Positions 9,611 through 62,060 of a stretch of 64,000 nucleotides of DNA are shown here, piece after piece. Within the stretch, counting starts at the first letter, position 1; every line of letters starts with the position of its first letter. Under the pieces are notes generated by a model. That model did no database searches and had not been told where the DNA came from. It saw nothing but the letters and a program-made list of their open reading frames with translations. A program made the translations under genes and the position numbers. The DNA comes from Bryoerythrophyllum caledonicum (taxonomy: Eukaryota > Streptophyta > Bryopsida > Pottiales > Pottiaceae). Where the stretch lies: assembly GCA_963971425.1 (NCBI GenBank), contig OZ020514.1, forward strand, positions 13,955,218 through 14,019,217, read 5' to 3'.

Positions 9611-9902
9611 CTAAATTGTCACTGTCAAGGGTGAGATAATTTCATATTCGGATTAAAACTAATCGCATGAAATATTATTCTAGTCATATAATATCCCATG
9701 TGTTTACCTCGAGTTGAGCTAAATTTGCTTGTTCTACAATGTCAATTCACTTGAATCATATGTATTTTCAAGCGCCAAACTTTACCTCGATTCGAGCATA
9801 ATTACCCTCTTCATATGCTTCTTCATTGATGTCTATTCCTACAAGGTATTCACCCATTCTTATTTCGCGGGGTTATTTAATGTTTACCTCATTGGAATGC
9901 AG

Positions 9903-20823: not shown

Positions 20824-20825
20824 GA

Positions 20826-41810: not shown

Positions 41811-42542
41811 GCGACATTTAAGTAAATGTGGACTTTAAGATGAATTCTGGACTTAGGATCAATTCTTGATATAGGAAGCAAGATCATGAGATCATACGGT
41901 CTTACCATTGGCATCAGGAATAATTTCAATAACTATAGGATTGAGCCTACTCATTACGGGTAACTGCAACATTCACTTAGGGATGAAGTTTAAAAAGGCA
42001 TCAAACAATGTAGTGGGATCTGGCGATCAAAGATACATCGCTTACATAGTGGGATCCTACAATCTAACAACACATGTAGGGCAATCAATGTAGTACACGT
42101 CAAACAAAGAAGCATTCAATTAGGCGCGGAGAATGGGGGTATGAACCACTGACAACTTTACTTATAGAGTATACTGAACAAAAGTAAGCCGCTGAAGAAC
42201 TGAATGTAGGGAAGCGGCTACATACTTTGTATTACTCGCTCAAGATACATAGCGTACATAGTAAGATCCTACGGTCTAACAATACATGTAGGGCAATCAA
42301 TGTAGTACACATCAAAAAAATAAGCATCTGGCGTGGAGAATGGGGGTAATGACTATCAAAAATATATATTCATAGAATAAACTGGATGAAATCGAACGCC
42401 AAGTTACAGAACTCAATGTAGGGAACCGACTACGTACTTCGTAACACTCGCTCAAAGTGCCACGGTTCAAGCAGTCTACGATTAAACTTTACATCCATTG
42501 GGTGCCCCCGCAGATACTCCTTCACCGAGGCGTAAGATCGCA
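41811..42542 (+). repeat. Left terminal inverted repeat of element B
   Basis: It begins GCGACATTTAAGTAAATGTG and matches the reverse complement of 61,327-62,058 nearly base for base; in the outer 96 bp I count one difference. It contains degenerate copies of the element B palindrome (42,045-42,062 and 42,258-42,276). It also holds a 61-codon ORF (41,908-42,093) present in both TIRs, which is probably not a gene. Its inner end carries a reversed copy of the 3' coding end of the second HAD domain. Confidence 0.92.
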
Positions 42543-43434
42543 AATGCCACATTTAAGTAAATCTGGACTTTTGAAAGTCTAGATTGGTCAAAGTCCAGAT
42601 TTATTGAAGGAAAATCTAACGAAATATGATATAGAGGTGCTTCGTAAGATCCTATGATCTAACAAAGATGGTCAATAAATTTTGAAAGTTAGGGTTCTAA
42701 CAAGAGAAACAATTAATAAATTGTAGGAATGTGTGATGTAGCAAGTGACCTTGCAAGGATAGGAGAATCATAGTAGAACTGACCTTGCATCACAGGTTAG
42801 GAAGATCCTACCATCACCATTTATTAGTAGTGGTAGAAGTGAGAAGAATAATGTATTTATTGCATCTACAGTGAGAAACAAACGTAGCATGTAAGCAGTT
42901 CCAGTAGAAACAGAAGTATTTGAGGGGTAATACATTATAAAGAAATTATGACATCGCCTAGGTTTATGTATAAAAGTTATCAAACAGGTGAGCATCTACA
43001 TAGGCACCTAGAAGAAGTAGGACCGTAAGATCCTGCTATCTCGCTGGAAGAGTTTTAAGGAAATTACCAGATAATTGTACTGCTTAAATTGCATCAAATG
43101 GCAGGAAAGAAACGCACCAGACTAGCAATTAACGGTAGGATCAAAAGTATCTGAAGAGAGCGCATACATTGTCGACAATTAATGCCAATGTCGAATTCAA
43201 TGCATTATAATTAAAATAGATGTAAACATTTATCATAGACAGCAAGGAGCAGTAGGATCATAGGATCCTACTATCTTGCTGGAAGAGTTCAAGAAAAAGA
43301 CGAGCGATGAGAAAACTGTGCTATCTTGCTGGAAAACTTCTACGACATCATAAGTCGTATTGTGCAAAGACATAGGATTTCGAGGAGGTGAAGGTCGCAG
43401 GATTCTATGATATTGTTGGAGGACCCTAATACCA
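42543..43434. repeat. Sub-terminal region of element B
   Basis: At 42,548 the outer terminal sequence is repeated in short form (ACATTTAAGTAAATCTGGAC), followed by a small inverted repeat, TCTGGACTTTTGAAAGTCTAGA. Palindrome relatives occur at about 42,645, 42,806, 43,022 and 43,245-43,275. There is no gene. This is the 3' flank of the DUF7869 gene. Confidence 0.6.
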
Positions 43435-46400
43435 TCAAGGGTCCGCCACATTTGCAGCTTCAAGGTTAGCCAATGCTGCAATTCGGTCCCTCTTTGGAAT
43501 CGTCCGAGTCTTAGGGTTCGTTCTACCTGACGCGGAGGCAAATACGACGGCATTAACATGAACTTGAAGTGGACGTCGTTTTTCCGGAACCCACGTTGCT
43601 GCCCAACAATCCTCATACTTCTTCTTGTGGTTTTTGAATTGATTTCTTGGCTCCCAGAATTGGATAATGAACTTCCCATATTCCGCATGCCCTCTTTCAC
43701 AATTGACTGCTGAACATGCTCTCCCTAACTAGACGGGATATATTTCGGGGTCTGAAGGACGGAGTAGGATCCATGATCCCGCTCCGACATCTCGCCATGG
43801 ATTCAAGGCGTCCTTCGGTCTCTCTTTCCTTGGGCCACAATAAAGTTCAGGTTCGTCATCTTCCGGTGTGACATCTCCACTGGTAATGAGGCACAATGGA
43901 GCTGGATCTGTGGCTCTCCAATCATGAATTGGCGAGAAGCCTTCTACCAAGGCCGCAGGAGTGGGAGGAAGAGGTTTCTCTAGTTCTGCAAGTATTCCAT
44001 TCCAGTATTCGATATAAGGTGGAAAATCCTTACGAAAGCCTATACTTTCAAGCATCCCGCGTTCCCAGAATTCTATATAACCTCGAATTCCACACTTGAT
44101 GAACGACCTCTTATCAAGGGCTTTGGAAACCTTCTCTCTTGCCTTCTCTGGATTGCCTGTGGAAGAAGGAACTTCATCGCCCCACAACCGCTTGAAAGGT
44201 ACAGGATTTGGGAGCCCGGAAGGTAGCATCGGTTTTCCGTCAGCATCCTCTTTCCAAAGACGGATAGCAGGCTTGTCTCTGCGTAGCCAGTGCGCATGAA
44301 CTCCAAGTTCCTTAAATCGCATGACGAGCCACCCTTCTTCATCTACGTAGAATTTAAAGAGGTGCATCTCTCCTAAGCCAACAAGTTTGTCAGCACCATC
44401 ACGAATATAACCATGGACGAAAGATTTGAAATCAGCAACCTCTTGAACAAACTCGGGCATAAAACCCAAGTCCGGCGACTGCATGAAGGACATCATCAAA
44501 TCCGCAACAATATAAGTATTCTGGCTCTTCAAGGTCTTGGATAAGTGGCTAAAGTAAGCATCAATATCCTCATGTGTGTGCCCGACTAATAAGAAACCAA
44601 CTTGGATTTCTTTGAATACCCTTCGATAAGTCAACATCGATAAGAACGCCATGAGAAATTGGTTCTTATTGTCCTTTGCAGAGTTGTCAAGCTGCAAATA
44701 TAACTTTTTTGGAAGGGGGACGGGTACAATCGAGTTATTCGTTACCGGAGGTAAAAGCTGAATACATCTGGACTTTCCTCTGAGCATAGCTTCAAAGAAA
44801 GAATTGGCCGGCTCATGGGGAAAAATTCTACCTGATTCACGAATGGGTGGTTCCTCGAGACGCCGAAGCAATCTCGCAAGGGAAGAGATAGTGTAATTAG
44901 AGTCTCCTGGCCACAAGTCAGTGGAATAGTGAGCATAGGCACCATCTCCATGATCGTGCGTGACCATACCGGTGACGTTCATAGGGAACTGACCCAAGGG
45001 TGATGTGAGTTTGGTAGAAACTCGCATACGAGGAATAGCTGTCTTGGCTGTATCCATTTTATCGTGGATAATACAAAGAATATCGCCCTTCTGCCGCTTC
45101 GACTCCTCTCTCCAGGTATGGTACACACGCCTACACGAAGCTTGGAGGTTGCGGTGGGTTTGTTTCTGCTTCACGAACGAATTATATTCGGCGGAACCCT
45201 TGACTGATCTGTCGATGTACTGCAATAGAGTGTCACAGAGGGTGCACTTTGCAAATGAACTCCCAACGGGTTTAACCGCAACATTGTTGAAGTGCTCCCT
45301 CCTGATTCTACTAACAGCAGATTGCGAAACCGTCGGCAACCCGCATTGTAGATTCGACTGCAAAAGACTCAAAACATTAAGTGCGTCAGGTGAGTGCCTA
45401 GTGAGAATTGAACTAAAATCAGATTGAGGGTAACCACAGAATGGGAGGACTGTATGATTGTAGCATACCCTTGGCGATCGTAGGATCCTACCATGAACTA
45501 GATGTACAGAGCAAAGATAGAGGGTCTTTTTTGACATTATCATAACCATGAGGTTCTTAAAGTACACGTGAATGCAGATAAGTGGTTCATGTGGTGTACT
45601 ATGTGGAGTAATACCTCTGTGGCGTCAACCTGGATCTTCTTCCAACTATGTCCAGAGGGCAGAAACTTTAGAGTGTCCATCCGCCCTGGTACTGTCAACC
45701 TCATCTGATTGGGCATGTGATCAACACTCTCATTGATAATAGCCGTAATCGTACCAAGTGCTTGCACGGTTCCAAGGCGGGGTCGTTTGACATCTTTGTT
45801 CCCGTGCGTAGAGGAAACGATACCCTTCTTGTACTGGTCCATATATTCGTGAAACGTTGATTTCGGTATGCCATGGATTTTGTACCACGCTGTAGCGCAG
45901 ATATCCTGACCTAGTAAAGTGACATACTTTCGTTTCCGATTGTTGCCCATATAGCGTAGTTGTCCACCCACAGACCTTGCATAATCCCGACGTTCGTCAA
46001 AGTCCTTCAGCCAAAACTTCTGGCGAATGAAAAGGGTATCATGGGGCCTGATTAAGCGCACACATTCGTCAGAACAACATGATTGCGAACTCACTGCTTG
46101 AATCTCTTCCGGCATTGTCTTCTTTGCGAACGCGTTGAGCTTCTCGACAGTCCGCTTTTTGCGACGAACAAATCGGTATGGTGCTTTTGGGCGGCCACCA
46201 AGGTGCGCATTCGCGTCTGGTGCGTCAGGAAGACAATTGAAATGTTCGAGCGTATCGCTAAGACTATGTCCTCCTTCGAATGTGCAGTCGGAAATGAGCC
46301 ACCTTCGATGACTGATAATATCACTAGGATCTCCGATAAAAACGTTGAATACTGTGACGCCAATGTTCCCCTCCCCCAGAGTACTGTTTTCGAACGGCTC

Positions 46401-46901
46401 ATCCGGACATACGCAATTAATGCGACCAGAGGCCATAAGATCCCCATCACCGTTAAACAGCTTCACAACCTTCCCCACCCACTCTGCCTCAGGTACAAAA
46501 GGAGGAGTGTTTGTCGACCCAGACGTTTCGCCTAAGTCCGAAGTCAGGACAAGGCTTGCTGTCTCCCAGAGAATTGTTCTACAAATCGATTCAGCCAAGA
46601 CAGAGATGCCCTCCTGCATTGGATGAATGAGTAGACTTAGCGCCCGTGCATGTATCTCAACAGGTCGAAGAAGAGTCAATTCCGCGTACATGAGATCAAT
46701 GTCGACGCCAAACCAACACCCAGTAGGAATGGCTTCAATGACAATGGCATGTCCAACGACGCCATGTCCAGGGTAGCAAAGTAAAGCAGTCATGCCCGAT
46801 TCATATCGGTTACGCTCGTCATTGGCTTCACCATCAGGGTTAACGCTCGCAGAATCAGTAAACTCATCGTCCGGTCCGCAACTTGAAGACATCGAAGGCA
46901 A
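43435..46901 (-). pseudogene. DUF7869-type transposase-like gene of element B (one premature stop)
   Basis: The start is ATG 46,901 (MPSMSSSCGPDDEF). Exon 1 reads to a donor near 45,615 (ACAGAG|GTATTA). A short intron with a palindrome follows, and exon 2 starts near 45,412. The frame is open to a TAG at 43,729, but protein similarity to the element A gene (FWIAQA against V*LGRA) shows that this TAG replaces a Trp codon. The same frame runs on 98 codons to a TGA at 43,435. Motifs in order: CTLCDTL (zinc-like pair), HDKMDTAKT, MVTHDHGDGAYAHY, LQLDNSAKDNKNQF (44,684-44,700), and LLVGHTHEDIDAYFS (about 44,560-44,590). The conserved Asp and His residues fit an RNase H-like metal-binding nuclease, and DUF7869 proteins are widespread in plant and animal transposons. 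A transposase role is inferred. The exact exon junction is uncertain because the frames need one alternative splice site. Confidence 0.72.
45476..45495. repeat. Element B palindrome in DUF7869 intron
   Basis: GATCGTAGGATCCTACCATG lies in the intron between the two coding exons (about 45,413-45,614). Confidence 0.85.
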
Positions 46902-47008
46902 CCGGAAAGAAAAGGATCAAATAAACCTTCGATCAGCCCTAGTCTTCGATCTCCTGATGAATAAAAATTCGAAAGAGACAAATGTTCAGATCAAGCCTGA
47001 TGACACAA

Positions 47009-47400
47009 GATCGTAAGATCCTATGATGAACCATGATTTCAAGCTCACCCCTGATTTCCAGGTTCTGCGATCACCCCAGAGTATCAACAAATCGATCGTA
47101 AGATCCTACGATTGTTCGGTAACTCCTAAACGATCCTAGGCGATAGTAAGATCCTACGATCATCCGAGAATATCTACAACATCCACATTCCTCGTTAGAT
47201 AACGAACCAAACACATCGTAAGATCCTACGATCATTCCAGAACCCGAGTTCGATCCTCGGTGATAGTAAGATCCTACGATCTTCCAGATTACACGGCTCC
47301 CCTCAAAGCCCGTTTTCATCCACCACGAAATAGATCGTAGGATCATACGATCTTAACATGACCCCTGACCAATCATCAAGGATAGTACTATCCTACGATC
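47009..47400. repeat. Element B palindrome array with 48/72-bp alternation
   Basis: Twenty-base palindromes start at 47,009, 47,094, 47,142, 47,214, 47,262, 47,333 and 47,381. From the second on the steps are 48, 72, 48, 71 and 48 bp, a ~120-bp unit with two palindromes each. The consensus is GAT(C/A)GTAAGATCCTACGATC. It lies just upstream of the DUF7869 ATG, in its presumed intron 1. Confidence 0.88.
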
Positions 47401-47741
47401 ATCCGATATTATCATAGGACCACCCAAGATCGTACAATCATCATGACTGTACGGAAAGTACGTTTACGAACACAGTAATAGCTACTGAACTAGTTCATTT
47501 AAGCAATGGCAAAAGTTGAATCTACCACAACTATGAGTAGTTTACTGAATATGATATAGACTAATTTAAAACAGCAAATACTTTACAAACCACCGCAGCA
47601 CTTTCACGATTAGAATTAGTTTAGAATCTATGATACTGACTCACTTACAACAGTATCAACTCTAAAAACCATCGCGGCACTTGCATTTCCAAAATATTTG
47701 AAAACCCTAATGTGTAGAAAGTGGAGGAAGGAGATAGTACC

Positions 47742-48100
47742 GTAGATTGTGATGAAACCGTTGAGAGATGGATCAATACAGGCAGCGGGGTAGCAATGAA
47801 GCGCTCGATCAACTTGAAAAGCTCAGATCGACGTGACTGTGACGCTCACATTGACTTGAAAGTTAAGATGAGCTTACAGCTTAAAGCTCGCTACCTAAAC
47901 TTGACAGAACATGACGAAGAGGTGTCGAAGTAGGTTAAGCCCAAGCTCGACTAAACACAAAGACGATACCGCATTTCTGACGCTCTCAAACTCCAAGTAT
48001 CTTCAAAACAAACACAAAGCTCTCAGTTCTTGGGCAAATACAACTCTCTCAGACTCTAACTCTGCTGGAAATGAACTCATAATGCTTGAACACTAAAACC
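47742..48100 (-). other. Presumed 5' leader exon of the element B DUF7869 gene
   Basis: On the minus strand this ends with CAATCTACG|GTACTATC, a plausible donor at 47,742/47,741, and lies upstream of the palindrome array and the coding exon. Plus-strand ORFs here (47,721-48,096) have no protein character. The role is inferred from symmetry with element A at 8,740-9,037. The stretch 47,401-47,741 in between holds nothing recognisable. Confidence 0.35.
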
Positions 48101-48399
48101 AGAGCAACCTATTCTTGATCTAAAGAGAGCGGGAAGTTCATCAAGAACAGGTTGAATCCTTGGCGGGAATAGAATCACAATCATTTTCAAGGACGTGGAG
48201 AGCTCTACGAGTGCCACTTCGAATGTAATTATTTCCAAGACGGAAAATGACAACAACGGAGACAAAATAAAATATTTTAGGGAAATTGTTCTTGAATTGT
48301 AGGAACGTCTAGTGATCATGAAGAACACACGTGTTTCAGTAGTAATCATGAACATACGACAATTCGTCATGGTTACAATCATTCACCTATTAGACTAGG

Positions 48400-48810
48400 T
48401 AAATAGTTCAGGGTTCTAGGTTCAGGGTTTAGGGTACAAGATAACAGACTAAAGCTTCCAGGTTTAGAGTTGGAGAATTAGGGTTTAGGTTCGGGATCTT
48501 AGCTTCAGTGCTTGGGGTTCAGGTTTCGAGGATTAGAGATTTAGGTTTAGGGTTTTTAGCCTGAGGGTTGAGGGTTCATGGTGGTTAGGTTGGGGTCCTA
48601 GGGTTTAGGGTCCTAGGTTTTAGGGTCCTAGGATTTAGGGTCCTAGGGTTTGGGGTCCTAGGGTTCAGGGTCCTGGGGTTAAGGGTCCTAGGGTTCAGGG
48701 TCCTGGGGTTAAGGGTCCTAGGGTTTAGGGTTTAGGGTTTAGGATTCAAGTTTAGGGTTTAGGGTTCAGTTTTTGAGGTTCCACGTTAAAATTCAGGGTT
48801 TAGGGTAATC
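48400..48810 (+). repeat. Degenerate telomere-like tract, copy 1
   Basis: This is TTTAGGG/TCCTAGGG/TTCAGGG-type repetition, for example GGGTTTAGGGTTTAGG at about 48,722. It is interspersed with a GGTCCTAGGGTTTA unit of 14-15 bp between 48,590 and 48,725. Confidence 0.88.
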
Positions 48811-49245
48811 CTAGAAATCCTTGTATAAATGATTCGTTGAGCTTGGATACGACATTCACGTATTTTACACTAAATATACAATAAATGTACTAGAATATAG
48901 CAAGACATACACCTTTGCATTGGAGATTCAACTAAAATCTTTCATTTGGGGGTCATTTCAATATCTAAAGCTTATCATGCTTAAATATGACACCATACAT
49001 GTAAATAACATGACCATTTTGCAATTTCTCAACCCTAAACCTAGGTTCACTAATGATCTAAAATAAAACTGTCATGTGTCCGTGGATCAAGCTCAACACA
49101 ATTATAGAGAATTATAACTATTGTACACATCAATTCCTAGACCATGAATGTGAAATTTGATTTAACAATGATCATGTTGAATTTAGCCTTCAATAACAAT
49201 AAATTTCAACACAAAGTAAATGTCTGTATTGCCAATTCCTTGAGT

Positions 49246-50050
49246 GCTAATGAAAGATTGAATAGAAAGAAGTGGAATCAAAAAATAGAATAAAGAAATA
49301 GAATGAATGATTGAATAGAAAGAAGTGGAAAAAGAGAATAGAATAAAGAAATAGAATGAAAGACTGAATAGAAAGAAGTGGAATAAGAAAATAGAATAAA
49401 GAAATAGAATGATGAAAGATTGAATAGAAAGAAGTGGAATAAGAAAATGGAATAAAGAAATAGAATGAAAGATTGAATAGAAAGAAGTGGAATAAGAAAA
49501 TAGAATAAAAAATCAGTCTAATAAAAGATTGAATAGAAAGAAGTGGAATCAAAAAATAGAATAAAGAAATAGAATGAATGATTGAATAGAAAGAAGTGGA
49601 AAAAGAGAATAGAATAAAGAAATAGAATGAAAGATTGAATAGAAAGAAGTGGAATAAGAAAATAGAATAAAGAAATAGAATGATGAAAGATTGAATAGAA
49701 AGAAGTGGAATAAGAAAATGGAATAAAGAAATAGAATGAAAGATTGAATAGAAAGAAGTAGAATAAGAAAATAGAATAAAAAATCAGTCTAATGAAAGAT
49801 TGAATAGAAAGAAGTGGAATCAAAAAATAGAATAAAGAAATAGAATGAATGATTGAATAGAAAGAAGTGGAAAAAGAGAATAGAATAAAGAAATAGAATG
49901 AAAGATTAAATACAAAGAAGTGGAATAAGAAAATCGAATAAAGAAATAGAATGATGAAAGATTGAATAGAAAGAAGTGGAATAAGGAAATAGAATAAAGA
50001 AATAGAATGAAAGATTGAATAGAAAGAAGTGGAATAAGAAAATAGAATTA
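49246..50050 (+). repeat. ~53-bp minisatellite, block 1
   Basis: The tandem units start GAATAGAAAGAAGTGG and continue with AATAAGAAAATAGAATAAAG, then AAATAGAATGAAAGATT. Unit length is 50-56 bp owing to small variants. Purines predominate on the plus strand. The long minus-strand ORFs rich in Phe, Ser and Ile are translations of this repeat. Confidence 0.9.
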
Positions 50051-50202
50051 AGAACAACGGAGACAAGATAAAATATTTTAGTGAAATTGTTCTTGAATTG
50101 TAGGAACGTCTAGTGATCATGAAGAACACACGTGTTTCAGTAGTAATCATGAACATACGACAATTCGTCATGGTTACAATCATTCACCTATTAGACTAGG
50201 TA

Positions 50203-50590
50203 AATAGTTCAGGGTTCTAGGTTCAGGGTTTAGGGTACAAGATAACAGACTAAAGCTTCCAGGTTTAGAGTTGGAGAATTAGGGTTTAGGTTCAGGGTCT
50301 TAGCTTCAGTGTTTGGGGTTCAGGTTTCGAGGATTAGAGATTTAGGTTTAGGGTTTTTAGCCTGAGGAATTGGGGTTCATGGTGGTTAGGTTGGGGTCCT
50401 AGGGTTTAGGGTCCTAGGTTTTAGGGTCCTAGGATTTAGGGTCCTAGGGTTTGGGGTCCTAGGGTTCAGGGTCCTGGGGTTAAGGATCCTAGGGTTTAGG
50501 GTTTAGGGTTTAGGATTCAAGTTTAGGGTTTAGGGTTCAGTTTTTGAGGTTCCACGTTAAAATTCAGGGTTTAGGGTAATCCTAGAAATC
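50203..50590 (+). repeat. Degenerate telomere-like tract, copy 2
   Basis: This is the duplicate of 48,400-48,810, with a few substitutions and a deletion of two GGGTTCAGGGTCCTGG-type units. Confidence 0.88.
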
Positions 50591-51014
50591 CTTGTATAAA
50601 TGATTCGTTGAGCTTGGATAAGACATTCACGTATTTTACACTAAATATACAATAAATGTACTAGAATATAGCAAGACATACACCTTTGCATTGGAGATTC
50701 AACTAAAATCTTTCATTTGGGGGTCATTTCAATATCTAAAGCTTATCATGCTTAAATATGACACCATACATATAAATAACATGACCATTTTGCAATTTCT
50801 CAACCCTAAACCTAGGTTCACTAATGATCTAAAATAAAACTGTCATGTGTCCGTGGATCAAGCTCAACACAATTATAGAGAATTATAACTATTGAATACA
50901 TCAATTCCTAGACCATGAATGTGAAATTTGATTTAACAATGATCATGTTGAATTTAGCCTTCAATAACAATAAATTTCAACACAAAGTAAATGTCTGTAT
51001 TGCCAATTCCTTGA

Positions 51015-52400
51015 GTGCTAATGAAAGATTGAATAGAAAGAAGTGGAATCAAAAAATAGAATAAAGAAATAGAATGAATGATTGAATAGAAAGAAGTGGA
51101 AAAAGAAAATAGAATAAAGAAATAGAATGAAAGATTGAATAGAAAGAAGTGGAATAAGAAAATAGAATAAAGAAATAGAATGATGAAAGATTAAATAGAA
51201 AGAAGTGGAATAAGAAAATGGAATAAAGAAATAGAATGAAAGATTAAATAGAAAGAAGTGGAATAAGAAAATAGAATAAAGAATCAGTCTAATGAAAGAT
51301 TGAATAGAAAGAAGTGGAATCAAAAAATAGAATAAAGAAATAGAATGAATGATTGAATAGAAAGAAGTGGAATAAGAAAATCGAATAAAGAATTAGAATG
51401 AAAGATTGAATTGAAAGAAGTGAAATCAGAAAATAGATTAAAGAATGAGTCTAATGAACGATTGAATAGAAAGAAGTTGAATAAGGAAATAGAATAAACA
51501 AATTGAATGAAAGATTGAATAGAAAGAAGTGGAATAAGAAAATAGAATAAAGAAACAGTCTAATGAAAGATTGAATAGAAAGAAGTGGAATAAGAAAATG
51601 GAATAAAGAAATAGAATGAATGATTGAATAGAAAGAAGTGGAATAAGAAAATAGAATAAAGAAATAGAATGAAAGATTGAATAGAAAGAAGTGGAATAAG
51701 AAAATAGAATAAAGAAATAGAATGATGAAAGATTGAATAGAAAGAAGTGGAATAAGAAAATGGAATAAAGAAATAGAATGAAAGATTGAATAGAAAGAAG
51801 TGGAATAAGAAAATAGAATAAAGAATCAGTCTAATGAAAGATTGAATAGAAAGAAGTGGAATCAAAAAATAGAATAAAGAAATAGAATGAATGATTGAAT
51901 AGAAAGAAGTGGAATAAGAAAATAGAATAAAGAAATAGAATGAAAGATTGAATAGAAAGAAGTGGAATAAGAAAATAGAATAAAGAAATAGAATGATGAA
52001 AGATTGAATAGAAAGAAGTGGAATAAGAAAATGGAATAAAGAAATAGAATGAAAGATTGAATAGAAAGAAGTGGGATAAGGAAATAGAATAAAGAAATTG
52101 AATGAAGGATTGAATAGAAAGAAGTGGAATAAGAAAATAGAATAAAGAAATAGAATGAAAGATTGAATAGAAAGAAGTGAAATCAAAAAACAGATTAAAG
52201 AATGAGTCTAATGAAAGATTGAATAGAAAGAAGTGGAATAAGAAAATAGAATATAGAAATAGTATGAAAGATTGAATAGAAAGAAGTGGAATAGGAAAAT
52301 AGAATATAGAATCTGTCTAATGATAGATTGAATAGAAAGAAGTGGAATCAAAGAATAGAACAAAGAAATAGAATGAAAGATTGATTAGAAAGAAGTGGAA
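51015..52400 (+). repeat. ~53-bp minisatellite, block 2
   Basis: The same unit as in block 1 is present in roughly 25 copies. Higher-order patterns (the order of GATGAAAG, CAGTCTAATG and TCAAAAAATAG variants) recur every five or six units. Confidence 0.9.
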
Positions 52401-52690: not shown

Positions 52691-52938
52691 TCCCTCCTCT
52701 TCCTTGAGGTTCTTGTTTTCATCTCACTTTCGGTTTCTTCCTTCAGGTTCTTGTTTTGTTTTTCGTGAGTTGTTGTGAGTATTGTTTTGTGATTTTTTGT
52801 GAGTGTTATTACCGTGACTGTATGCGCGTGTGTGAGCGGTGTGAGCGGTGTGAAAGTAGTTTCAACTTCAAACCGGTGCGATTGGCGGACGCGACGTTAC
52901 GAAAGAGTGCGGCGCATTGCAAGAAACAATACTTCGAG
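52691..52938 (+). other. Presumed 5' leader exon of the element B ParB-like gene
   Basis: A pyrimidine-rich stretch (CTCCCCCTCCCTCCTC at 52,685) leads into GTGAGTTGTTGTGAGT-type repetition and a GC-richer end. It closes with a strong donor, TTCGAG|GTAAGAA, at 52,938. The matching element A exon (4,245-4,003, minus) also has GTGAGT repetition and a strong donor. Whether the protein starts here is unclear. Confidence 0.4.
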
Positions 52939-54006
52939 GTAAGAATTTCTTCAAAGAAACTCTGGTCAGTTGATATGTATTAGAAATTCGGTGTTTTTAG
53001 GTCTTTGTCCAGCTCAGGATGTTCGGAAGGAGAATGTAGTTGTTTGGAGTTCTTCAACTGTCGATGTTTTTTAGACATTGAATAGGTGGTATTGTTGTGA
53101 CTCACGAGCTTCTAACACGACGTCTTGTGTAGCGTGTAGGGCAACCAATTCACGAGGATGACAGGCCGATCAGGCAATGCAAGCGACAGGAGTGACCCGT
53201 TAGTTTTTAATCCTTTCAATGAACTAAGTTTTTCTTTTTCACGTTCTGGTTTAGATGATTTGTAGTATGATATGAATAATGTCAAATGATTGTCTGATTC
53301 TGGTTTTCATGTTAGTTTTACAAGCTGCGTAGTATGTGATGAATGATTGTCAGATTCAGGTGTTTGTGTTAGGTTTACAAGGTGCGTTGTATGTTATGAA
53401 TGATTGTCTGAGTGAGATTATTATGTTAGGTTTAAACTGTACAAGGTGTGTAGTATGTTATGAATGGTTGTTAGATTCTGGTTTTCATGTTCGGTTTTTT
53501 CAGTGAGTAGTATGTTATGAATGATAATTAGATTCAGGTGTTCGTGTTAGGTTTACAAGGTGCGTTGAATGTTATGAATGATTGTCAGATTCAGGTTTTC
53601 ATGTTAGGTTTAAAAGGTGCGTAGTGTGTGCTGAATGTTTCAGCTTTAGGATTCAGGTAAAGATTGCTAGATCTGTACAATCTTTTCAATGACTTTCTAC
53701 TAAGGCTTTCCATGCTCTGGTATACAAGCTCTGTTAAATGATGTGAATGGTATTCTAGCTTTGGTACTCATCCTCAGATTATCAAGCCTTGTAGTATGGC
53801 ATGAATGTCATAACACTCATCGAATTTTATTGATACGTATGTTAATCCCTTGTAGTCTTATATGCAATTTAGGGTTATGTGTATGGTATGCAAACTTTTC
53901 ACAATTGATACAATGTAGATCTATTGTACATGTAAATGCACATAAACTTATCATAAGTTGTACATTGCTGCTGAGGTGCACCTGAAGTTCATTCGATCCT
54001 CATGGG
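52939..54006 (+). other. Presumed intron 1 of the ParB-like gene, left part
   Basis: About six degenerate copies of a ~65-bp unit (GTAGTATGTTATGAATGATTG followed by TTCAGGTGTTCGTGTTAGGT-type sequence) lie between 53,260 and 53,640. A short open stretch after ATG 53,159 (MTGRSGNASDRSDPLV) could be a further small exon. Nothing else is recognised. Confidence 0.45.
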
Positions 54007-54460
54007 GATCGTAAGATCCTACCATCGTCATGAGGATGGTAGGATCTTACGATCCCCATAAGGATCGTGAGATCATACGATCCCTTTCGAGATCATAAGA
54101 TCTTACGACACCCTTGAGGACCGTAAGATCTTACGATCCCCATGCGGATCGTTAGATTATACGATCCATTTCAGGATCGTAAGATCTTACGATCCCAGTC
54201 AGGATCGTTAGATTATACAATCCCGTTCCGGATCGTATTATCTTACGGTCCCCTGGAGGGATCATATGATCTTTTGCAATCCCTCAGCTCTGCTTGAACC
54301 AAAGGTCCCCTCGGAGATAGTAAGATCCTACGATCCATTTCACAGTGTACTCTAGTTATCACAACTTCTTCTGTATCCATTGTTGAATGGGATAGTAAGA
54401 TCTTACGATCCCCCTAAGTTCTGTATGAACTATCCATTCCTTTTAGAATGGTAGGATCTT
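54007..54460. repeat. Element B palindrome array with exact 28-bp period
   Basis: Twenty-base palindromes start at 54,007, 54,035, 54,063, 54,091, 54,119, 54,147, 54,175, 54,203 and 54,231, with every step 28 bp (20-bp palindrome and 8-bp spacer). A more degenerate one follows at about 54,260. Three further copies lie at about 54,318, 54,391 and 54,443. The consensus is GATCGTAAGATCTTACGATC. The array is about 100 bp before the ParB coding exon. Confidence 0.92.
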
Positions 54461-54557
54461 ACGATCCTCGGTTAGATGCTTGCCCGTGATTTGAAAGCAA
54501 ACCGTTGACACCTGAGTTTCTTTTCTGACTACTAAATTTCTGCATTGGTTTGGTTAG

Positions 54558-55905
54558 GGAAAATATCATCGAACTCCAAGACGTGAACCCCAACTGGTGT
54601 CCTGTGAACCTCTATGATGCTGTTTCGTGTGGGCTGAGGAACATAGAATGTAATCTACTTAGTGATCCTGAGCCCACCGCTTTCTTTATGGCCGACAAAG
54701 TTGTGGAATGGGGTCTTCATTGGACGCTTGATCGCAAGCAAAAAAACATTCTGATTGCGCCAGTGTTAGCTATTACAAATGCCGCAGCTCCTGGAGGTCC
54801 TTCATACAAATTATCAACGATGAACATGGAAGTACTAGAGTTAGTGCACCTGACCGCCACCATTTTTGTAATTGTCATCTCCGAGTTTGTGGCGAGTTCG
54901 GGCTGTTCCAGGGTGTATGGCTTAGTCATTGACAAAGTAGGTTTGGTTCCTGCACTAAACGAATCGGTCAAGGACTGGGGATTCACTATATCGAATTTTA
55001 ATCCCGATGTCAGAAGGATTGTGCAAGGTTGGAAGGAGCTGCAGGCGAATCGAGATTCGTACAATAGAGACCGACAGAAAGCAGCTCCGCCTACACCTCC
55101 TAAGAAGAAGTGGTTGTCTTCACTTCTTGCGGTGGAGGGGCCGCCAAAGAAGAAGTCACAGAGGAAGAAGTCGGATCCGAAGGTGGACGAGCTGACACTA
55201 GCGAAGGCAGTGGGGATGACGAGCAAGACCGTCGCAGGGAAAACCGCAAAAGAGCTGCAGCTTGTGAGGACTCTGTACGAAAGAGAGTTCTCGAAACTCC
55301 ATATTTTTGGTAAGAAGCCAATGAAGGTGTCCCCGCAGGACCCCGCTGATCTGGTAGTAGACATTGACCGTCTTCACCGAGCTCCTGCCGGTACTGTTGT
55401 TTATCGACCACTGGATAAAAAGCGAGTATTACAGTTCATAGACCAGAAGTGCACGATGCCATTTCAGGCATCACTGCAGCATCTGTACATGATGCCAGTG
55501 AAGGGACATTATCCAGTCCGGAAAGAAGATTTCAAGGACGTGCCACACGATGCATACGAGTTTTTCAAGGAGCAACCAACATTGAAGGACATCGGCCCAA
55601 ACACACACTATGTGGTTATAGGCGGACAGCATTGCGTGGCTGCGCACAGAGTCCTCATTGAGGAGGGTAGTCTCTCGGAAGAAGATGAAAGAGATGCCAA
55701 GAGCTTCATCATAACAATCGTCTGGCAGGATCCCAAGGACTGGAACTCAATGCTATACTATTCAAGGGTCCTCAACCAAGATCTTGCTGGCGTTAGATCA
55801 GAGGGCAACTATCTTACCCTTCTAGGTCTAGCACGTAAGAGCTGGGTTTCAGCCGGCAGTCCAGCTCCATCCAAGAATGGATTGGCGCACTCCAATGAGT
55901 TCAAG
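54558..55905 (+). CDS. ParB/DGQHR-like protein of element B
   Basis: The exon starts at an acceptor (TTGGTTAG|G) and ends at a donor (TTCAAG|GTGAGT). The first Met is unknown because the open frame begins with a non-ATG codon. It has about 449 residues here. An N-terminal globular part ends with FNPDVRRIVQGWKEL. A basic NLS-like segment follows near residues 180-210 (PKKKW, PPKKKSQRKK). The ParB/Srx-like domain covers about residues 270-400: LVVDIDRLHRAPAGTVVYRP, LQHLYMMPV, then HYVVIGGQHCVAAHRVLI near residue 355, VWQDPKDWNSMLYYSRVLNQD and a helical tail. The element A homologue has the same order (NGQHSVAA, VWTQDPEKLRKISAYYNRVN) and ends at the same splice position. The loop Arg of GQHR/GERR is Cys here. 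Confidence 0.62.
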
Positions 55906-55974
55906 GTGAGTCACTTTATACATTACCCATCACTTTAATGTGTGACTTACCGATTCATATATAAGGTATAAACT

Positions 55975-56042
55975 GATCGTAGGATCTTACGATCCCAACT
56001 CAGTTAACCACATGGTAGTCAGGATCGTAGGATCCTATTATC
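55975..56042. repeat. Two element B palindromes in the ParB-gene intron
   Basis: Copies at 55,975-55,994 (GATCGTAGGATCTTACGATC) and 56,023-56,042 lie 48 bp apart, in the intron 55,906-56,086. Element A has two copies of its own palindrome in the corresponding intron (586-616 and 683-712). Confidence 0.9.
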
Positions 56043-56086
56043 TCCAAATTATTGTGTTTCACTTCTCACTCCCGATATCCTTGCAG

Positions 56087-57535
56087 GCTTGGTCTGACAA
56101 ACTTCCGGCACTGTTTTCCAACTCGGATTCAAAGGTCATTGAAGACAGCAACACATGAATCCCGAAATATCCGCTTCTGTTTGTTTCGGAGCCAATTTTC
56201 CAGATTTGATTACAGATCCAGGAGAGCTGGGTACTTGGACTTCTTCCCAACGCATTCGGGATTACTTCGAGCTTTGTCTCAGGTGTTGACGAGGACTTTG
56301 CAGATGACGTTGAGGACAACGAGGATAGGTCCAGGAAGGAGCGTTTGAAGTAGAAGCGATACCAGGCGAGGGCTCTAAAGCAGAACGACTTGATGCCACT
56401 TTATTTCATGTGGGATAGTGACATCGAGAAGATGGCGAAGTTGGTGATGGCGAAGAAAGTCTCGGTGAAGTCGACGAAGTCGGCTAAGATGGTACCCGTT
56501 CTTCAGGGCCTTGAGAAGGCGTGTCAGACTGAGAAGAAGCATAGACTCATCAAGAACGAGTTTATGCACTACTTCTGTAAGAAGCCCCTGAGGTGTAAGA
56601 CACTGAAGGAAGCCTCATATTCTGAGGATGATTATGTCAGGGTAGCAGCGGAGTACAAGGTCACCGAAGCCACCATCGAAACGTGGTTTGAGAAGGTTAT
56701 TAAAGACCCTGCTGGAGAGTGCTTCTTTTTGAAGCGAGGATCCGCTTTAGCCCCCTCAAACAAGGAGGATGACTTTCCGACTATTCTGAAGATGCTCTTC
56801 GATCACTAGAAGGCCATCAAGGAGAATTGAGCTGAGAGCGCTCCAACATCTTCCGGATTGTCGCTCTCTGCGAAATATAAATCCGTCTGGATGAACAGGA
56901 AATCGGGAGACCTGGCGAAGATTCTACTGTTGGGCAGTGACCAGATGCTGCAATGGACAAAGAAGGACGCAACGGTGGTTATGGTGTACTGCTTTGTCAA
57001 TCGCAAAGAGAAAGGAAAACCTGATTTTTCAATCATGGAACAGGTTTTGCGTACGCTGCAGGCCATGGAGCATAAGGATGATAACCAGTTCAGGAGGGTC
57101 CGTTATCCAGGTGTGTTTATCACAGATCGGGCTGGAATGGTGGATGTTGCCAACGCTGTAGCTGAGAGGGGCGCGGTCGCTACACAAACGCTACCCTGGT
57201 TTCATACCCCCACTTTATATATTACCCAGGGGACGGAGGGCTTCGTGAGTCCTTCATCTCCGGAACCAACGTTGCCCTTATACTTCAACTTTGTGTACGG
57301 GAACGACTTCAATTCTACTGAAGCAGTGTGCTTCCGATCTGCTTTTGGGAATGAGATGCCGTTCCAGACAGTGATATCCGCAGCAGATTTCGAGGATGCT
57401 CCCAAACAATGGGCCCAACATTCTTATGCCAATTTCAATATCGACGCGGTTAGCAAGTTGATTGGCACATTGGGGGCTCCTAACAATCTTATTGTCAACA
57501 TCGGTGGGGGTCCTTCGATTACCTGGATTGGCCTG
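56087..57535 (+). pseudogene. Continuation of the ParB-like gene, five in-frame stops
   Basis: From an acceptor (CCTTGCAG|G) to a donor (GGCCTG|GTAAG), 483 codons lie in one frame. They are interrupted only by TGA 56,156, TGA 56,207, TAG 56,351, TAG 56,807 and TGA 56,828. Blocks between the stops look like protein: a basic region (KKVSVKSTKSAKMVPVL), a helical part with ATIETWFEKVIKDPAGE, and a compact domain at 56,858-57,535 with RYPGVFITDRAGMVDVANAV and NNLIVNIGGGPSITWIGL. The last motif vaguely recalls a nucleotide- or SAM-binding glycine loop, but I would not assign it. Some stops could lie in unrecognised introns. Confidence 0.5.
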
Positions 57536-57542
57536 GTAAGAT

Positions 57543-57562
57543 GACCGTAGGATCCTACGATC
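57543..57562. repeat. Element B palindrome, 3' of the splice donor
   Basis: GACCGTAGGATCCTACGATC begins 8 bp after the exon end at 57,535, inside the intron 57,536-57,668. Confidence 0.85.
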
Positions 57563-57668
57563 TCTTTATCTCATCTCTCAGTTTGTTCAAGTTCTCTATC
57601 CACGCTATCCTTACATTGTATGAATCTGTTTCCTGTCATCTAATACAGCCTACCACTCTGTGTTGCAG

Positions 57669-58076
57669 ACTAAAGGAGCACAAGTCATCGAAGTCGTCTT
57701 CTCCAGGGATGAAGTGATGAGAGCCGATGAGACAGCGAAGGATATCTCGGAAAGTGCTCAGACGCTGGCAATAGCAGTACCTCCCATGGCAGCCTTGACT
57801 GTGAGCGAGAGGAAGAAAAAGACGATCGCAAGAGGCAAGAAGAAGGTCATACCCGTATCCAGCTCCGAGAGTGATTCCTCCAGCGACTCGGACAAGGCAC
57901 CCTCCGAGAAGGCCATTGATGTGGAGGCGGAGGACACCGAAGAGGAGGATCCACCTTTGGACGACAGGCGTTCGGGCAGGTCCAAGTCTCATCGAAGATT
58001 GCAGCTGCAAAACCAAGAGCAGATCAACTTGACTCCGCCCTCTTCTACACAAACCGGTGCCCATGAGGCAACCATT
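57669..58076 (+). CDS. Exon with acidic Ser-rich linker
   Basis: The exon lies between GTTGCAG|A and ACCATT|GTATG. It encodes TKGAQVIEVVFSRDEVMRAD, then a basic patch (RKKKTIARGKKK) and an acidic Ser-rich run (SSSESDSSSDSD, DTEEEDPP). It is low-complexity and probably disordered. The basic-then-acidic pattern is common in nuclear proteins. It follows the previous exon in phase. Confidence 0.55.
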
Positions 58077-58235
58077 GTATGATACACACCCTTATTTTTA
58101 TCTCTCTCAGCGGACAAACTATTTCTAGGACAATTGTATATAACAATAACCATGTAAACTAATCAGCTATGTACTGTGGTTAATTTTCTGTTTGCATATT
58201 CGTTGTATTCATCATCATATCCCAACTCCATGCAG

Positions 58236-59285
58236 GGAACTGAGGAAGTTCATGATCGGCATCTACGTACTTCATCTTCAGAGCGGCCGGTATGAATAAC
58301 ATTGCTCCACTTGTAGTTTATAGAACTTGGAATACATGTATCGATGGATCCATTTTACGCGATATAGTCATCAGTTACTACTCGGAGAGTGCTTTAGGAT
58401 CGTAAGATCCTACTATCCCTGCTCGTCTTTCGTTGTAGAGATTTATTCTTACCAGGTTCTGATCGTTGTAGTTATGCATAGATGCTTCTACGTGCACAAC
58501 GCACTTTGTCCTACACCCCCTTTCAGCCATTTTGATGTTTAGGTTTTCGTTTGTAGTTGCCAACTGGGACAAGAGCTTGACTGACCTTATTTAATGGCCG
58601 CAGCTTTTCCAAATTTCTCATGACGATCATGTGCGGTCTACTTCAGCAGCGGTGGAGCATGTTTACGGTCATGGCGATTCTCTTATGCATGATATCGACC
58701 AAGTCAATGCCAGCACAATATATGAAGCGGAGGATATCAGCCTTCAGGTTCTACTTAACGACTGTCCAATGAGTGCCATGAGGTCCTGAGTTGTCGAGGA
58801 GGTGAACTTCTGGAGGTGAGTTCAGTTCCAGATCAAGAAAGGACAAGAAGAGAAGAGGAGGCGTCGTTGCTTGCGGACGAAGAGTTACTTGCTCCTCGAA
58901 CCAGGATGACCGTCACGAATGTACCACCATTAAAGCTGAGAAGATCGGACGTGCTTCATCCCCCGTCGTCCGAACCTACACCGATGGAGTTAGAACCATC
59001 GTCTAATCCTTCTGTTTCACCCCCAGTAAGTAAAGCGCCGTTCGATAGGGACCTTATCATAGGCATATTTGAGGAGGCTAGTCAGTCACTACAGGCCTTC
59101 AGCCCTCCTAGGAATGTTTCGAATACACCTATTGTTGAGGACTACTTGGATGACCCTTTGAATTTCAGTCAAGAAATTCAGCCAACAACCTTTAGGGTCG
59201 TCCCAATACCTGATGTTGAGGCTGATGCTGCTGAAAAGGGTCCTCCATCCGCACAACATACCGATGCAGGAACCTCTGCAGAAGG
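58236..59285 (+). CDS. Small linker exons between ParB-like and HAD parts
   Basis: Likely exons are 58,236-58,289 (CATGCAG|G ... CGGCCG|GTATG), 58,604 to about 58,746 (GCCGCAG|C ... CTTCAG|GTTCT), and about 58,816-59,285 (open frame SVPDQERTRREEEASLLADE to QHTDAGTSAEG|GTATGAG). All are Ser/Pro/Glu-rich without a recognised domain. One palindrome lies in the intron at 58,398-58,417. The joins are provisional. Confidence 0.45.
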
Positions 59286-59390
59286 TATGAGCTACTAAAT
59301 TCAACAATCTTAGTGTTTTCTGTGTATCTCTTATGTTCTATGTTCACACTATTATCCTCAGGGGATATTAGGATCGGCGATCCTTACGGC

Positions 59391-59492
59391 CATCGTAGGA
59401 TCTTACGATCGCTTTGGGGAGTGTAGTATTTTTTGTTCCTATTGAGATGGTAGGATCCTACCATTCCGATGGGATGGTAGGATCCTACTATC
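59391..59492. repeat. Three element B palindromes in intron
   Basis: Copies at 59,391-59,410, 59,446-59,465 and 59,473-59,492 (the last two 27 bp apart, reading GATGGTAGGATCCTACCATT and GATGGTAGGATCCTACTATC) lie in the intron 59,286-59,590. Confidence 0.88.
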
Positions 59493-59590
59493 CTCCAGCA
59501 CTGTTGTCTCGAATGCTGGTAATGTATATGCATTCTGAATGGCTTTTTTGTCGTGTATTCTTCACTAATTACCTCCTTTTTTTGGGCAGT

Positions 59591-60439
59591 TGAGATGTTG
59601 GGGACTGCTCAACGTCGTGAAAAGGTTCCATTATCGGTGGCACATAAGGGCTCTGGTTCCTCTAGAGAAGGTATGATTCTAGACAACTCTACTACTTATT
59701 ATTTGTTTTTTGTACTGGAGACTCATTCTTGCAACATTTGTTTTCTGCAGGAAAACTCAGTGCACCAGCCATTAAATCAGCCCCTAGATCAGCAAAGGTA
59801 AGGCAACCTTGGTACACTGTTGTGCTGGACTTGAATGGATTTCTGATTCACAGATCGTACGATAAGGGGCGTAAAACTGTCGCTAGACCTGAGTGTGCAA
59901 ATTTTCTGAAGGTGCTCACAAATAAGGCTACTGTCGTGGTATGGAGTTGCGCCATGAGGAAAAATGTCGATAGCATGTTACAGGTGGGTTTGGGTAGTTC
60001 TACTGTTAAGCTAGTTGACCTAAGAGTTATGTCACAATCTGATATTACGGAGTCGAGCTTTCCGAGAGCGGGGAACAATGTTGAGAAGAAGTACATGCTC
60101 AAGGACCTCAAAAACGTTAGGAAATATGTTGACCACGTAGACCTCAGTCTGACATTGCTCATTGACGACAGCCCGGAGAAGAACCTCCTCAACGATGAAT
60201 TCAGTGCGATTCATCCTCAAACGTGGACAGGTGACCTGAAGGACAAGTTCCTCATGAACACTATGCTTCCATGGCTCGAAAATATGTTTTCCTCAAATCT
60301 CTCTGTGGCCGAATATGTCCGTAACCATCCCCTTCCTGGATGTCCGGTTCCTAGAGAATTTAGGTCCACTGCGTTGGCTCAGAACATCGTAATTGGGTGT
60401 TCTCGAAAATGGAATTCCAAAGTCGGGGCATTTCAATGA
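59591..60439 (+). CDS. FCP1/NLI-interacting-factor-like HAD domain 1
   Basis: Small exon 59,591-59,670 (TTGGGCAG|T ... AGAGAAG|GTATG) is followed by exon 59,751-60,439 (TTCTGCAG|G, stop TGA). The domain begins WYTVVLDLNGFLIHR. The HAD nucleophile Asp is present (D-L-N-G-F), but the second Asp of DxDG(T/V) is Asn. Motif II is TVVVWSCAM and the metal-binding acidic pair is LLIDDSPEKNLL. NHPLPGCPVP follows near the C-terminus. FCP1/SCP phosphatases act on phosphoserine, for example in the RNA polymerase II C-terminal domain; with DxN the activity is doubtful. The domain is about 200 residues, normal for the family. Its place in the transposon is unusual. Confidence 0.72.
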
Positions 60440-60597
60440 CTACTCACTCGTATCGGTGATGTGTATATTTTGTATACTTTGTTTCAATATAAACTTGTAG
60501 GATGTACCTCTACTCTATCAAACACTCTTCAGTATTGAGGCCATCATCTTATTTTGAATATTATCAATCTCAATATCTCCCATGAATTATCGTTAGG

Positions 60598-60770
60598 GTG
60601 GTAGGATCCTACGACCCTGAGGAATGTAGTAGTTAAGGATACTATATGATTTTTGTGATGCGGATAGCAGTGTGGTAGGATCCTACGACCCTCATGGATG
60701 GAGTAGTTAAGGATCTTGTATGGATGATTTGTTTGTAGTATGGATGGCACTGTGGTGGGATCCTACGATC
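60598..60770. repeat. Element B palindromes between the HAD domains
   Basis: Three copies of a GGTAGGATCCTACGACC-type palindrome (about 60,598, 60,672 and 60,753) fall in three ~78-bp degenerate direct repeats (GTAGTTAAGGAT..TATG..TTTG..GTATGGAT). Confidence 0.85.
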
Positions 60771-60812
60771 CATGATGTTGTTTATAACTTCTATCTTTCT
60801 CTATGATCACAG

Positions 60813-61439
60813 CGACGCGACGACTCGACAAAAGTTATCGTGTTGTCTGTCAACGGATTGCTTTGTTTCGAGCAATACGATAACTGCTCTCCGCGACTCT
60901 TCAATCGGAACAACATCATTGTTCGGCCTGGTCTCCTAGAGTTCTTCAGTATTCTTCTGAGGTCGTTCCAAGTTGGTATATGGTCGTCCATGGTCCCCGC
61001 GCGCCTGAAGAAGGTCCTTGAAGTCCTCCTCCCCGAAGACATAAGGTCAAGACTTCTTTTTTGTTATGGACGAAACAAGTGTTCCAGGCCACAATTGTAT
61101 CCTTTCTGTGACAAGGTTCTTCAGAGACTCTCAACGGACCGGAAGACGAAGCAGTTTTGTCTTCTTGACAAAATATTGATGGTTGATGACCAGCCAATGC
61201 GTCATGTCTTCAACGGAGACCTCGCTTGCTACTTTCCGAAGTCATGGCATGGTGAAATGACCTTACCCAACACATCCAATGTAATACCTAATATTGGCAC
61301 AGCGTTGCTTCCGTTCATCCTTCCACTGCGATCTTACGCCTCGGTGAAGGAGTATCTGCGAGGGCACCCAATGGATGTAAAGTTTAATTGTAGACTGCTT
61401 GAACCGTGGCACTTTGAGCGAGTGTTACGAAGTACGTAG
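60813..61439 (+). CDS. FCP1-like HAD domain 2, nucleophile lost, ending inside the TIR
   Basis: The exon starts after GATCACAG|C and reads STKVIVLSVNGLLCFEQYD, then VGIWSSMVPARLKKVLEVLL, FCLLDKILMVDDQPMRHVFN, and a C-terminus ending HFERVLRST before a TAG at 61,437. It is homologous to domain 1 (the WS-M, (I/V)DD-P and N-G-(F/L)-L positions match). The DxDx nucleophile reads S-x-N, so it cannot form the phospho-aspartate. The last ~37 codons (from 61,327) lie within the right TIR. It may be a second gene or a second domain of the same transcript. Confidence 0.65.
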   Translation, partial: RRDDSTKVIVLSVNGLLCFEQYDNCSPRLFNRNNIIVRPGLLEFFSILLRSFQVGIWSSMVPARLKKVLEVLLPEDIRSRLLFCYGRNKCSRPQLYPFCDKVLQRLSTDRKTKQFCLLDKILMVDDQPMRHVFNGDLACYFPKSWHGEMTLPNTSNVIPNIGTALLPFILPLRSYASVKEYLRGHPMDVKFNCRLLEPWHFERVLRST

Positions 61440-62058
61440 TCGGTTCCCTACATTGAGTTCTGTAACTTGGCGTTCGATTTCATCCAGTTTATTCTATGAA
61501 TATATATTTTTGATAGTCATTACCCCCATTCTCCACGCCAGATACTTATTTTTTTGATGTGTACTACATTGATTGCCCTACATGTATTGTTAGACCGTAA
61601 GATCTTACTATGTACGCTATGTATCTTGAGCGAGTAATACAAAGTATGTAGCCGCTTCCCTACATTCAGTTCTTCAGCGGCTTACTTTTGTTCAGTATAC
61701 TCTATAAGTAAAGTTGTCAGTGGTTCATACCCCCATTCTCCGCGCCTAATTGAATGCTTCTTTGTTTGACGTGTACTACATTGATTGCCCTACATGTGTT
61801 GTTAGATTGTAGGATCCCACTATGTAAGCGATGTATCTTTGATCGCCAGATCCCACTACATTGTTTGATGCCTTTTTAAACTTCATCCCTAAGTGAATGT
61901 TGCAGTTACCCGTAATGAGTAGGCTCAATCCTATAGTTATTGAAATTATTCCTGATGCCAATGGTAAGACCGAATGATCTCATGATCTTGCTTCCTATAT
62001 CAAGAATTGATCCTAAGTCCAGAATTCATCTTAAAGTCCACATTTACTTAAATGTCGC
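61327..62058 (-). repeat. Right terminal inverted repeat of element B
   Basis: This is the inverted copy of 41,811-42,542. It ends AAATGTCGC; two further bases (AT) precede the presumed TGA target duplication. It contains the coding end of HAD domain 2 and its polyadenylation region. Confidence 0.92.
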
Positions 62059-62060
62059 AT

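Follow-up and report, generated by a model that had tools for sequence, protein, structure and literature searches.

A giant DUF7869 transposon with a ParB-like gene and lineage-specific palindromes in its non-coding DNA

Introduction

How a transposon escapes silencing without freeing all the others is an open question, for which VANC, a protein of the Arabidopsis VANDAL elements, is a worked example. In the sections of PMC5735166 covered here, VANC binds non-coding DNA of its own family and lifts silencing there; the motifs bound by VANC21 are dense in non-coding regions, tandem repeats that contain them occur in introns too, related elements have different motifs and conservation is higher in the transposase than in VANC. 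Here, a giant cut-and-paste-type DNA transposon is described from Bryoerythrophyllum caledonicum, at 42544..62060 of a 64-kb stretch of genomic DNA (the window), which carries a DUF7869 gene and, divergent from it, a gene for a ParB-like protein. Clustered palindromes are dispersed through its non-coding DNA, and in relatives the type of palindrome follows the clade of the ParB-like protein. The ParB-like protein probably reads the palindromes of its own lineage for self-recognition, by which it would protect or activate its own copies, with the DUF7869 protein as the transposase.

VirB belongs to the ParB family. The part of PMC10653881 covered states that it offsets silencing. Giant transposons with ParB-like genes have been published before: PMC12477816, also covered in part, describes a 21.5-kb Sola-1 transposon of Ectocarpus (Sola1-1_Ec32) whose ParB-like plus methyltransferase gene lies on the other strand from the transposase, and refers to further cases in green and red algae. 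That report weakens the statement, in an initial annotation of the window, that no eukaryotic transposon with this combination had been described. The new part is the match of protein lineage to palindrome; no report of lineage-matched palindromes in such elements was found in the literature searched, itself covered in part.

In the parts of PMC5735166 and PMC10398659 covered, VANDAL elements resemble this one in having a fast-evolving protein beside a more conserved transposase, and dense, family-specific, often tandem motifs in non-coding DNA and introns that differ between relatives. They differ in that VANC has DUF1985 and DUF287, for which the ParB-like blocks here gave no Pfam match, and in that the VANC21 motif is non-palindromic and in a single orientation, whereas the sites of this element are palindromic. 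The putative transposase here is DUF7869, and a further trait of the VANC system is loss of DNA methylation on copies of its own family. Sola1-1_Ec32 is likewise a giant element of about 20 kb with its ParB-like gene on the strand opposite the transposase; no methyltransferase domain was detected in the window element, which has two FCP1-like domains instead, and the section of PMC12477816 on Sola1-1_Ec32 does not mention lineage-specific palindromes. The likeness to bacterial ParB/parS and VirB lies in palindromic, clustered sites and, by eye, in GGQH-x2-AA against GERR-x-RAA of ParB. A different protein accompanies the same sequence signature as VANC; the sites here are longer and palindromic, and a single genome holds several natural variants of specificity. 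Binding of ParB-like accessory proteins to their own transposon has so far been a suggestion of the algal literature and is now directly testable, and protein variants with their matching sites are available as a natural set.

Results and discussion

Palindromes in the window element

Sites were counted as matches to CGTARGATCYTACG at 12/14 or better, and exons were set by hand from open frames and conservation (8195 of 19517 bp, 42% of the element). The element holds 31 sites, none of them in exons (0/31, binomial 5e-8), and 20 mononucleotide shuffles of it gave 0-1 sites each. Within the interval flagged in the initial annotation (41811..62060), which had recorded no clustered palindromes, there are 32 sites at this threshold and none in the other 43.7 kb of the window; at 11/14 or better, 40 lie inside and 3 outside. 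The genes and sites are arranged as follows.

42544..62060, unstranded: element proper, from left end ATGCCACATTTAAG to right end CTTAAATGTCGCAT, as placed by the left-end search and a comparison of 20 left and 16 right ends
43729..46892, minus strand: DUF7869 gene, with open frames at 45540-46892 (N-terminal part) and 43729 to about 45405; exon borders putative
54558..55904, plus strand: ParB-like exon, with motif VVIGGQHCVAAH at 55612-55647; ParB by motif only
42643..43272, unstranded: three palindromes (42643, 43024, 43259) between the left end and the DUF7869 gene
45479..45492, unstranded: one palindrome in a presumed DUF7869 intron, where the frame is open
47012..47349, unstranded: cluster of 6 sites (12/14 or better) 5' of the DUF7869 gene
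54010..54463, unstranded: array of 10 sites, mostly at a 28-bp step, 5' of the ParB-like exon
55978..56039, unstranded: pair of palindromes in the intron that follows the ParB-like exon, at the same position in most other copies
57546..60767, unstranded: eight palindromes, distributed over introns singly or a few at a time (57546, 58401, 59394, 59449, 59476, 60600, 60674, 60754)
61596..61609, unstranded: one palindrome in the right end (12/14 or better)

The site at 45479 was taken as intronic because most matches from other lineages start after it, at about residue 70-100. Sites recur at places corresponding to the 54010..54463 array in loci L022-L050, and each of the 30 subfamily loci fetched around a ParB-like exon, counting that of the window, has 5-16 palindromes. 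The palindromes diverge less than the surrounding DNA (181/3813, 0.047, vs 952/12659, 0.075), and they do so in 27/29 copies.

Lineage specificity of the palindromes

The genome from which the window comes (437 Mb in 894 contigs, the window lying in contig C1) was searched for relatives, and 18 loci of other lineages, 45-67% identical in the ParB-like protein, were compared: eight at first, with ParB-like proteins of 45-52% identity, and ten fetched later. All eight have clustered palindromes at corresponding places, of these types.

L051: CGGAGGATCCTCCG
L052, L054 and L055: GGAATATATTCC and GGAAGATCTTCC
L058, and weakly L053: CGATGGATCCATCG
L056 and L057: CGTAGGATCCTACG, nearly the window's own

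The L052-type palindrome is unrelated to that of the window. The L051 palindrome is one base off per half-site, so that seven L051 sites count for the window motif at 12/14 or better; at 13/14 or better there are none. For the ten later loci the motifs were derived without using the protein, and the palindrome type was that of the nearest protein clade in 10/10. Nine of these fall in clades already seen (six L052-type, one L051-type, two L056-type), each with the motif of its clade, and the tenth, with a ParB-like protein 67% identical to the window type, has the window-type motif. Altogether the palindrome differs from the window's in 13/18 loci. Motif clusters had 3-16 members in 22 fetched loci, and at most 3 in shuffles (3 once, for L050). 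These clustered, lineage-specific palindromes in non-coding DNA, from which we infer the binding itself, lend good support to the proposal in the initial annotation of a site-binding module supplied by the transposon; for a partition-like module there is no evidence.

A second, distant element of the same kind at 1-13000, cut by the window start, repeats the layout of the first with the site TTTAGCTC-N5-GAGCTAAA, which is unrelated to CGTARGATCYTACG. The motif was first read off an inverted-repeat list, and counting sites with at most 3 of 16 mismatches gave 28 in the second element, 1 elsewhere in the window, 0 in the frames of the element and 0 in 10 shuffles.

31-540, minus strand: probable next exon of the ParB-like gene of the second element, after that at 703..2226
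703..2226, minus strand: ParB-like exon, YYIINGQHSVAASKAMI; 207 amino acids align with the first at 25% identity (blastp E 3e-11)
2255..3413, unstranded: array of TTTAGCTC-N5-GAGCTAAA 5' of the ParB-like frame, with a step of about 53 bp at 3077-3393
9273..9801, unstranded: array of TTTAGCTC-N5-GAGCTAAA 5' of the DUF7869 gene, with a step of about 47 bp at 9273-9548
9802..12112, plus strand: DUF7869 gene (tblastn 40% identity, E 5e-58; Pfam E 1.8e-11)

This DUF7869 gene is again divergent from its ParB-like gene and has a stop inside the domain; it reads QMNN for QLDN and GHTHDDID for GHTHEDID.

Linkage of the two genes

At least 94 ParB-like match rows (45-100% identity) and at least 72 DUF7869 match rows were found in the genome. 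Linkage was scored for the 94 ParB-like matches and for 70 DUF7869 matches, the 72 rows minus two small exon fragments; both lists are the best of many more candidates (4324 and 1337, respectively). The two genes do travel together, as the initial annotation supposed: among the matches listed, 44/70 DUF7869 matches have a ParB-like partner within 30 kb and 39 within 15 kb, and all 44 pairs are divergent, none being convergent or on the same strand. In 13 linked pairs outside the window subfamily, identity to the window's proteins is 75-80% for DUF7869 and 45-66% for the ParB-like protein, over matched spans that differ in length. A hand count places 55/94 of the ParB-like matches listed on C1, a contig with about 15% of the genome; it may be a sex chromosome or one rich in repeats.

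Proposed mechanism and alternatives

The divergent ParB-like gene would encode a fast-diverging, sequence-specific DNA-binding protein that recognises the palindromes across the gene-proximal regions and introns of the element. By marking copies of its own lineage alone, it would probably protect or activate their transcription, and the effect would be self-specific anti-silencing or autoregulation, as VANC exerts for VANDAL elements. We infer the ParB-like protein as the reader from the sequence pattern, and anti-silencing from the analogy with VANC; the DUF7869 protein is most likely the transposase. A larger proposal is put forward tentatively, as a serious possibility: the DUF7869 superfamily may carry a private address code, in which the ParB-like protein of each lineage reads its own palindrome and the protein and dozens of sites change together. 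Anti-silencing would then have evolved independently of VANC on a prokaryotic-type palindrome binder, possibly one that spreads along the element as ParB does.

Several observations weigh against this account. Most of the palindromes of the first eight loci share the frame CGnnRGATCYnnCG and differ by one or two bases per half-site, and the window-type and L056-type proteins are 45% identical yet have nearly the same palindrome. The agreement within clades is partly common descent, because sites and gene are inherited together, and another protein of the element could be the reader. The ParB-like gene of the window copy looks damaged beyond its first exon, and in ten other copies the ratio of non-synonymous to synonymous change (pN/pS) is 0.21-0.71, the nearest ones having 0.23-0.71 with few changes. 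Profiles give the protein no place in the ParB family: there was no ParB/Srx (PF02195, DGQHR) match in Pfam, PHROGs or NCBIfam and no meaningful one in PDB, and hhalign against 14 Bacillota ParB gave probabilities of 0.7% and 0.5% with shallow query alignments (effective number of sequences, Neff, 1.7-1.9), next to 0.06-0.64% in 20 control runs with shuffled columns. Finally, 26/70 DUF7869 and 49/94 ParB-like matches have no partner within 30 kb among the matches listed; as each list is the top-scoring part of a far larger candidate set, these figures do not show that a partner is lacking.

That the palindromes are binding sites of the DUF7869 transposase, the ParB-like gene serving something else, is unlikely. 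Palindromes are in general common for transposase-type binders, those of the element co-inherit with both genes, and CACTA elements offer a parallel in TNPA, which binds their subterminal repeats. The sites here are not subterminal, however: 4/31 lie within 1 kb of an element end (about 3 expected by length), and 16/31 are found in the 600 bp upstream of either the DUF7869 start or the ParB-like exon. Moreover, the L052-type motif is unrelated to the window's, whereas linked pairs outside the subfamily keep 75-80% identity in DUF7869 and it is the ParB-like protein that has fallen to about 50%. Just as doubtful is a chromatin-modifying system made up of the ParB-like protein and the palindromes, with the block at 56.8-58.1 kb as a degenerate methyltransferase-like or other effector. 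Such a function is suggested for the ParB-like plus methyltransferase protein of Ectocarpus Sola1-1 in the part of PMC12477816 covered, and the block has VNIGGGPSITW and then QVIEVV, by eye like methyltransferase motifs; against this, it has no Pfam match, no meaningful PDB match and no visible DPPY motif.

The clusters 5' of both the DUF7869 gene and the ParB-like exon, in both window elements, would also suit operators for autorepression or copy-number control through which the ParB-like protein limits transposase expression, but palindromes lie deep in several introns as well, where an operator does not need them, and this explanation is quite improbable. Least credible of all, and very improbable, is that the palindromes are structural or mutational by-products, such as tandem-repeat spread or hairpins, that no protein reads. 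Some sites do stand on 28-, 47- or 53-bp tandem steps; others, however, are isolated in separate introns, none is in an exon, the sites diverge more slowly than their surroundings, and the whole set is replaced between lineages.

The ParB-like gene

The plus-strand gene starts, as far as established, at the exon with the GGQHCVAAH motif, an earlier small exon being possible, and runs through a block without database match and acidic low-complexity sequence to the two FCP1-like domains.

56086..57532, plus strand: second coding block of the ParB-like gene, with stops and frame changes in the window copy

This block is a single open frame of 514 amino acids in the relative L059, and had no significant Pfam match (best E 0.13). 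The order of blocks is the same downstream in L059, L060 and L062, the fifth block being unmatched in L062; L061 and L063 have the first blocks only, within the 5 kb fetched. A methyltransferase reading of 56.8-58.1 kb, where the likeness is by eye, found no support in Pfam or PDB. The first exon is open in 13/30 copies. Between the window and seven copies of the subfamily of about 94% identity its pN/pS is 0.11-0.19; between lineages that spread, purifying selection has therefore acted on the gene.

The initial annotation described a ParB/DGQHR-like GGQHCVAAH core, of which the motif stands and the family assignment finds no support by profile methods; the protein is best called ParB-like, for its motif and its association with palindromes, and is not assigned to the family here. 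Alignment A1 of the exon has 7 rows (L056, L057 and L058 were left out because of stops), one of which, L055, reads GGQL. In alignment A6 four of the five rows have GGQH and the distant row has NGQH. By eye, the order of a helix, the MPFQASLQHLYVMP strand, YVIIGGQHCVAAHK, the IVW strand and the YYSRVLNQDLAG helix resembles ParB. A helix-turn-helix was seen by eye in the block after the core, where alignment A3 gave 0.3% against ParB, and ahead of the ParB-like core the second element weakly matches HTH_Tnp_Tc3_2 of Pfam (E 0.0092, below the cut-off). Single-sequence AlphaFold models reached mean confidences (pLDDT) of 33 and 39, too poor to judge the fold. The PDB matches 4f7u (E 0.61), 4zza (E 0.69) and 4zs9 (E 0.76), as well as 6gxr (E 0.005) and 4eqf (E 0.76), were judged to be chance. 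Searches of viral and prokaryotic contigs gave no confirmed relatives.

The DUF7869 gene and the FCP1-like domains

The two divergent gene units of the initial annotation, its DUF7869 assignment and its two FCP1-like domains of the haloacid dehalogenase (HAD) type were all borne out.

44305-44721, minus strand: DUF7869 domain (PF25273 E 3.5e-42)
59813..60286, plus strand: first FCP1/NIF-like domain (PF03031 E 5e-16, 59.2 bits, cut-off 21.8)
60834..61253, plus strand: second FCP1/NIF-like domain (PF03031 E 3.5e-8, 33.7 bits, cut-off 21.8)

The PF25273 score is 144.6 bits against a cut-off of 26; the N-terminal part of the gene (45540-46892) had no Pfam match. The blocks HDKMD, QLDN..DNKN and GHTHEDID are conserved in copies of 73-76% identity. 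No mention of DUF7869 was found in the literature searched.

The catalytic motif of FCP1/NIF phosphatases is DxDx(T/V). The domains of the element match PF03031 above its curated cut-off, as NLI/FCP1-type HAD proteins do, but carry DLNG (VLDLNGFL) in the first domain and SVNG (VLSVNGLL) in the second at this motif, and because of these replacements they are probably not phosphatases. ARAGORN calls a tRNA-Tyr at 60697-60775, between the two FCP1-like frames and overlapping a palindrome; the call is probably false.

Ends, copies and insertion site

The element is a member of a large DNA-transposon family in its genome. The initial annotation had given it terminal inverted repeats (TIRs) of 732 bp, and inverted arms of that length, at 41811-42542 and 61327-62058 with 5 mismatches, are real.

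41811..42542, minus strand: left arm, the right-end 732 bp repeated in inverted orientation beyond the true left end
61327..62058, plus strand: right-end 732 bp, covering the 3' end of the last FCP1-like exon, whose frame is open to 61439

A genome search with the arm (best 40 scored matches of 138 candidates, 20 loci fetched) turned up further copies in which the arm is a right end: it runs inward into the FCP1-like exon in 19/20 fetched loci, the sole exception being the window's own left arm. Among these 20 loci, only the window copy has an extra inverted right end to the left of the true left end. A search with the sequence inside the left arm listed 40 places and one fragment, of 263 candidates, and 20 were fetched; those 40 places, the best of the 263, are true left ends. 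The left end starts ATGCCACAT (window 42544) and the right end finishes ...CTTAAATGTCGC, as in 16 other copies with both ends. The terminal AT is followed by GCCACATTTAAG in 17/20 fetched left ends and by variants of it in 3/20; one of the 16 copies has AG instead of AT at its right terminus. Target duplications of 4 bp lie outside the terminal AT in 15/16 copies with both ends; random pairing of the sides gave identical 4 bp in 1.2 of 16 on average and in 6 at most. The family therefore has short TIRs, since these ends recur in the 16 other copies, and a 4-bp target duplication, and the 732-bp arms are not its TIRs.

Sola1 makes 4-bp target duplications, a likeness to the 15/16 copies here. 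Sola2 also does, according to the part of PMC3627910 covered.

The insertion junctions in the window read CTC-TGAG-CGACATT...TGTCGC-AT-TGAG-TCATC. TGAG on both outer flanks fits insertion of the whole unit into a long interspersed nuclear element (LINE), the left arm lacking its outermost AT(G), and the clean insertion of the initial annotation is therefore plausible. The extra inverted right end, together with TGAG flanking the insertion as a whole, suggests transposition of a unit that had two right ends. The flanks resemble LINE frames by eye, no family search having been made on them, and no second copy of them was found within the 64-kb window.

Other features of the window

A LINE-like frame with a 2A-like GDIETNPGP motif lies at 41193-41546. 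Between the two genes, 48245-52400 holds a 1.8-kb duplication, long AG-rich arrays with 53/56-bp steps and TTTAGGGTCC-type repeats. Gag-pol frames of a Ty3-type long terminal repeat retrotransposon, by eye of plant type, lie at 16078-21752.

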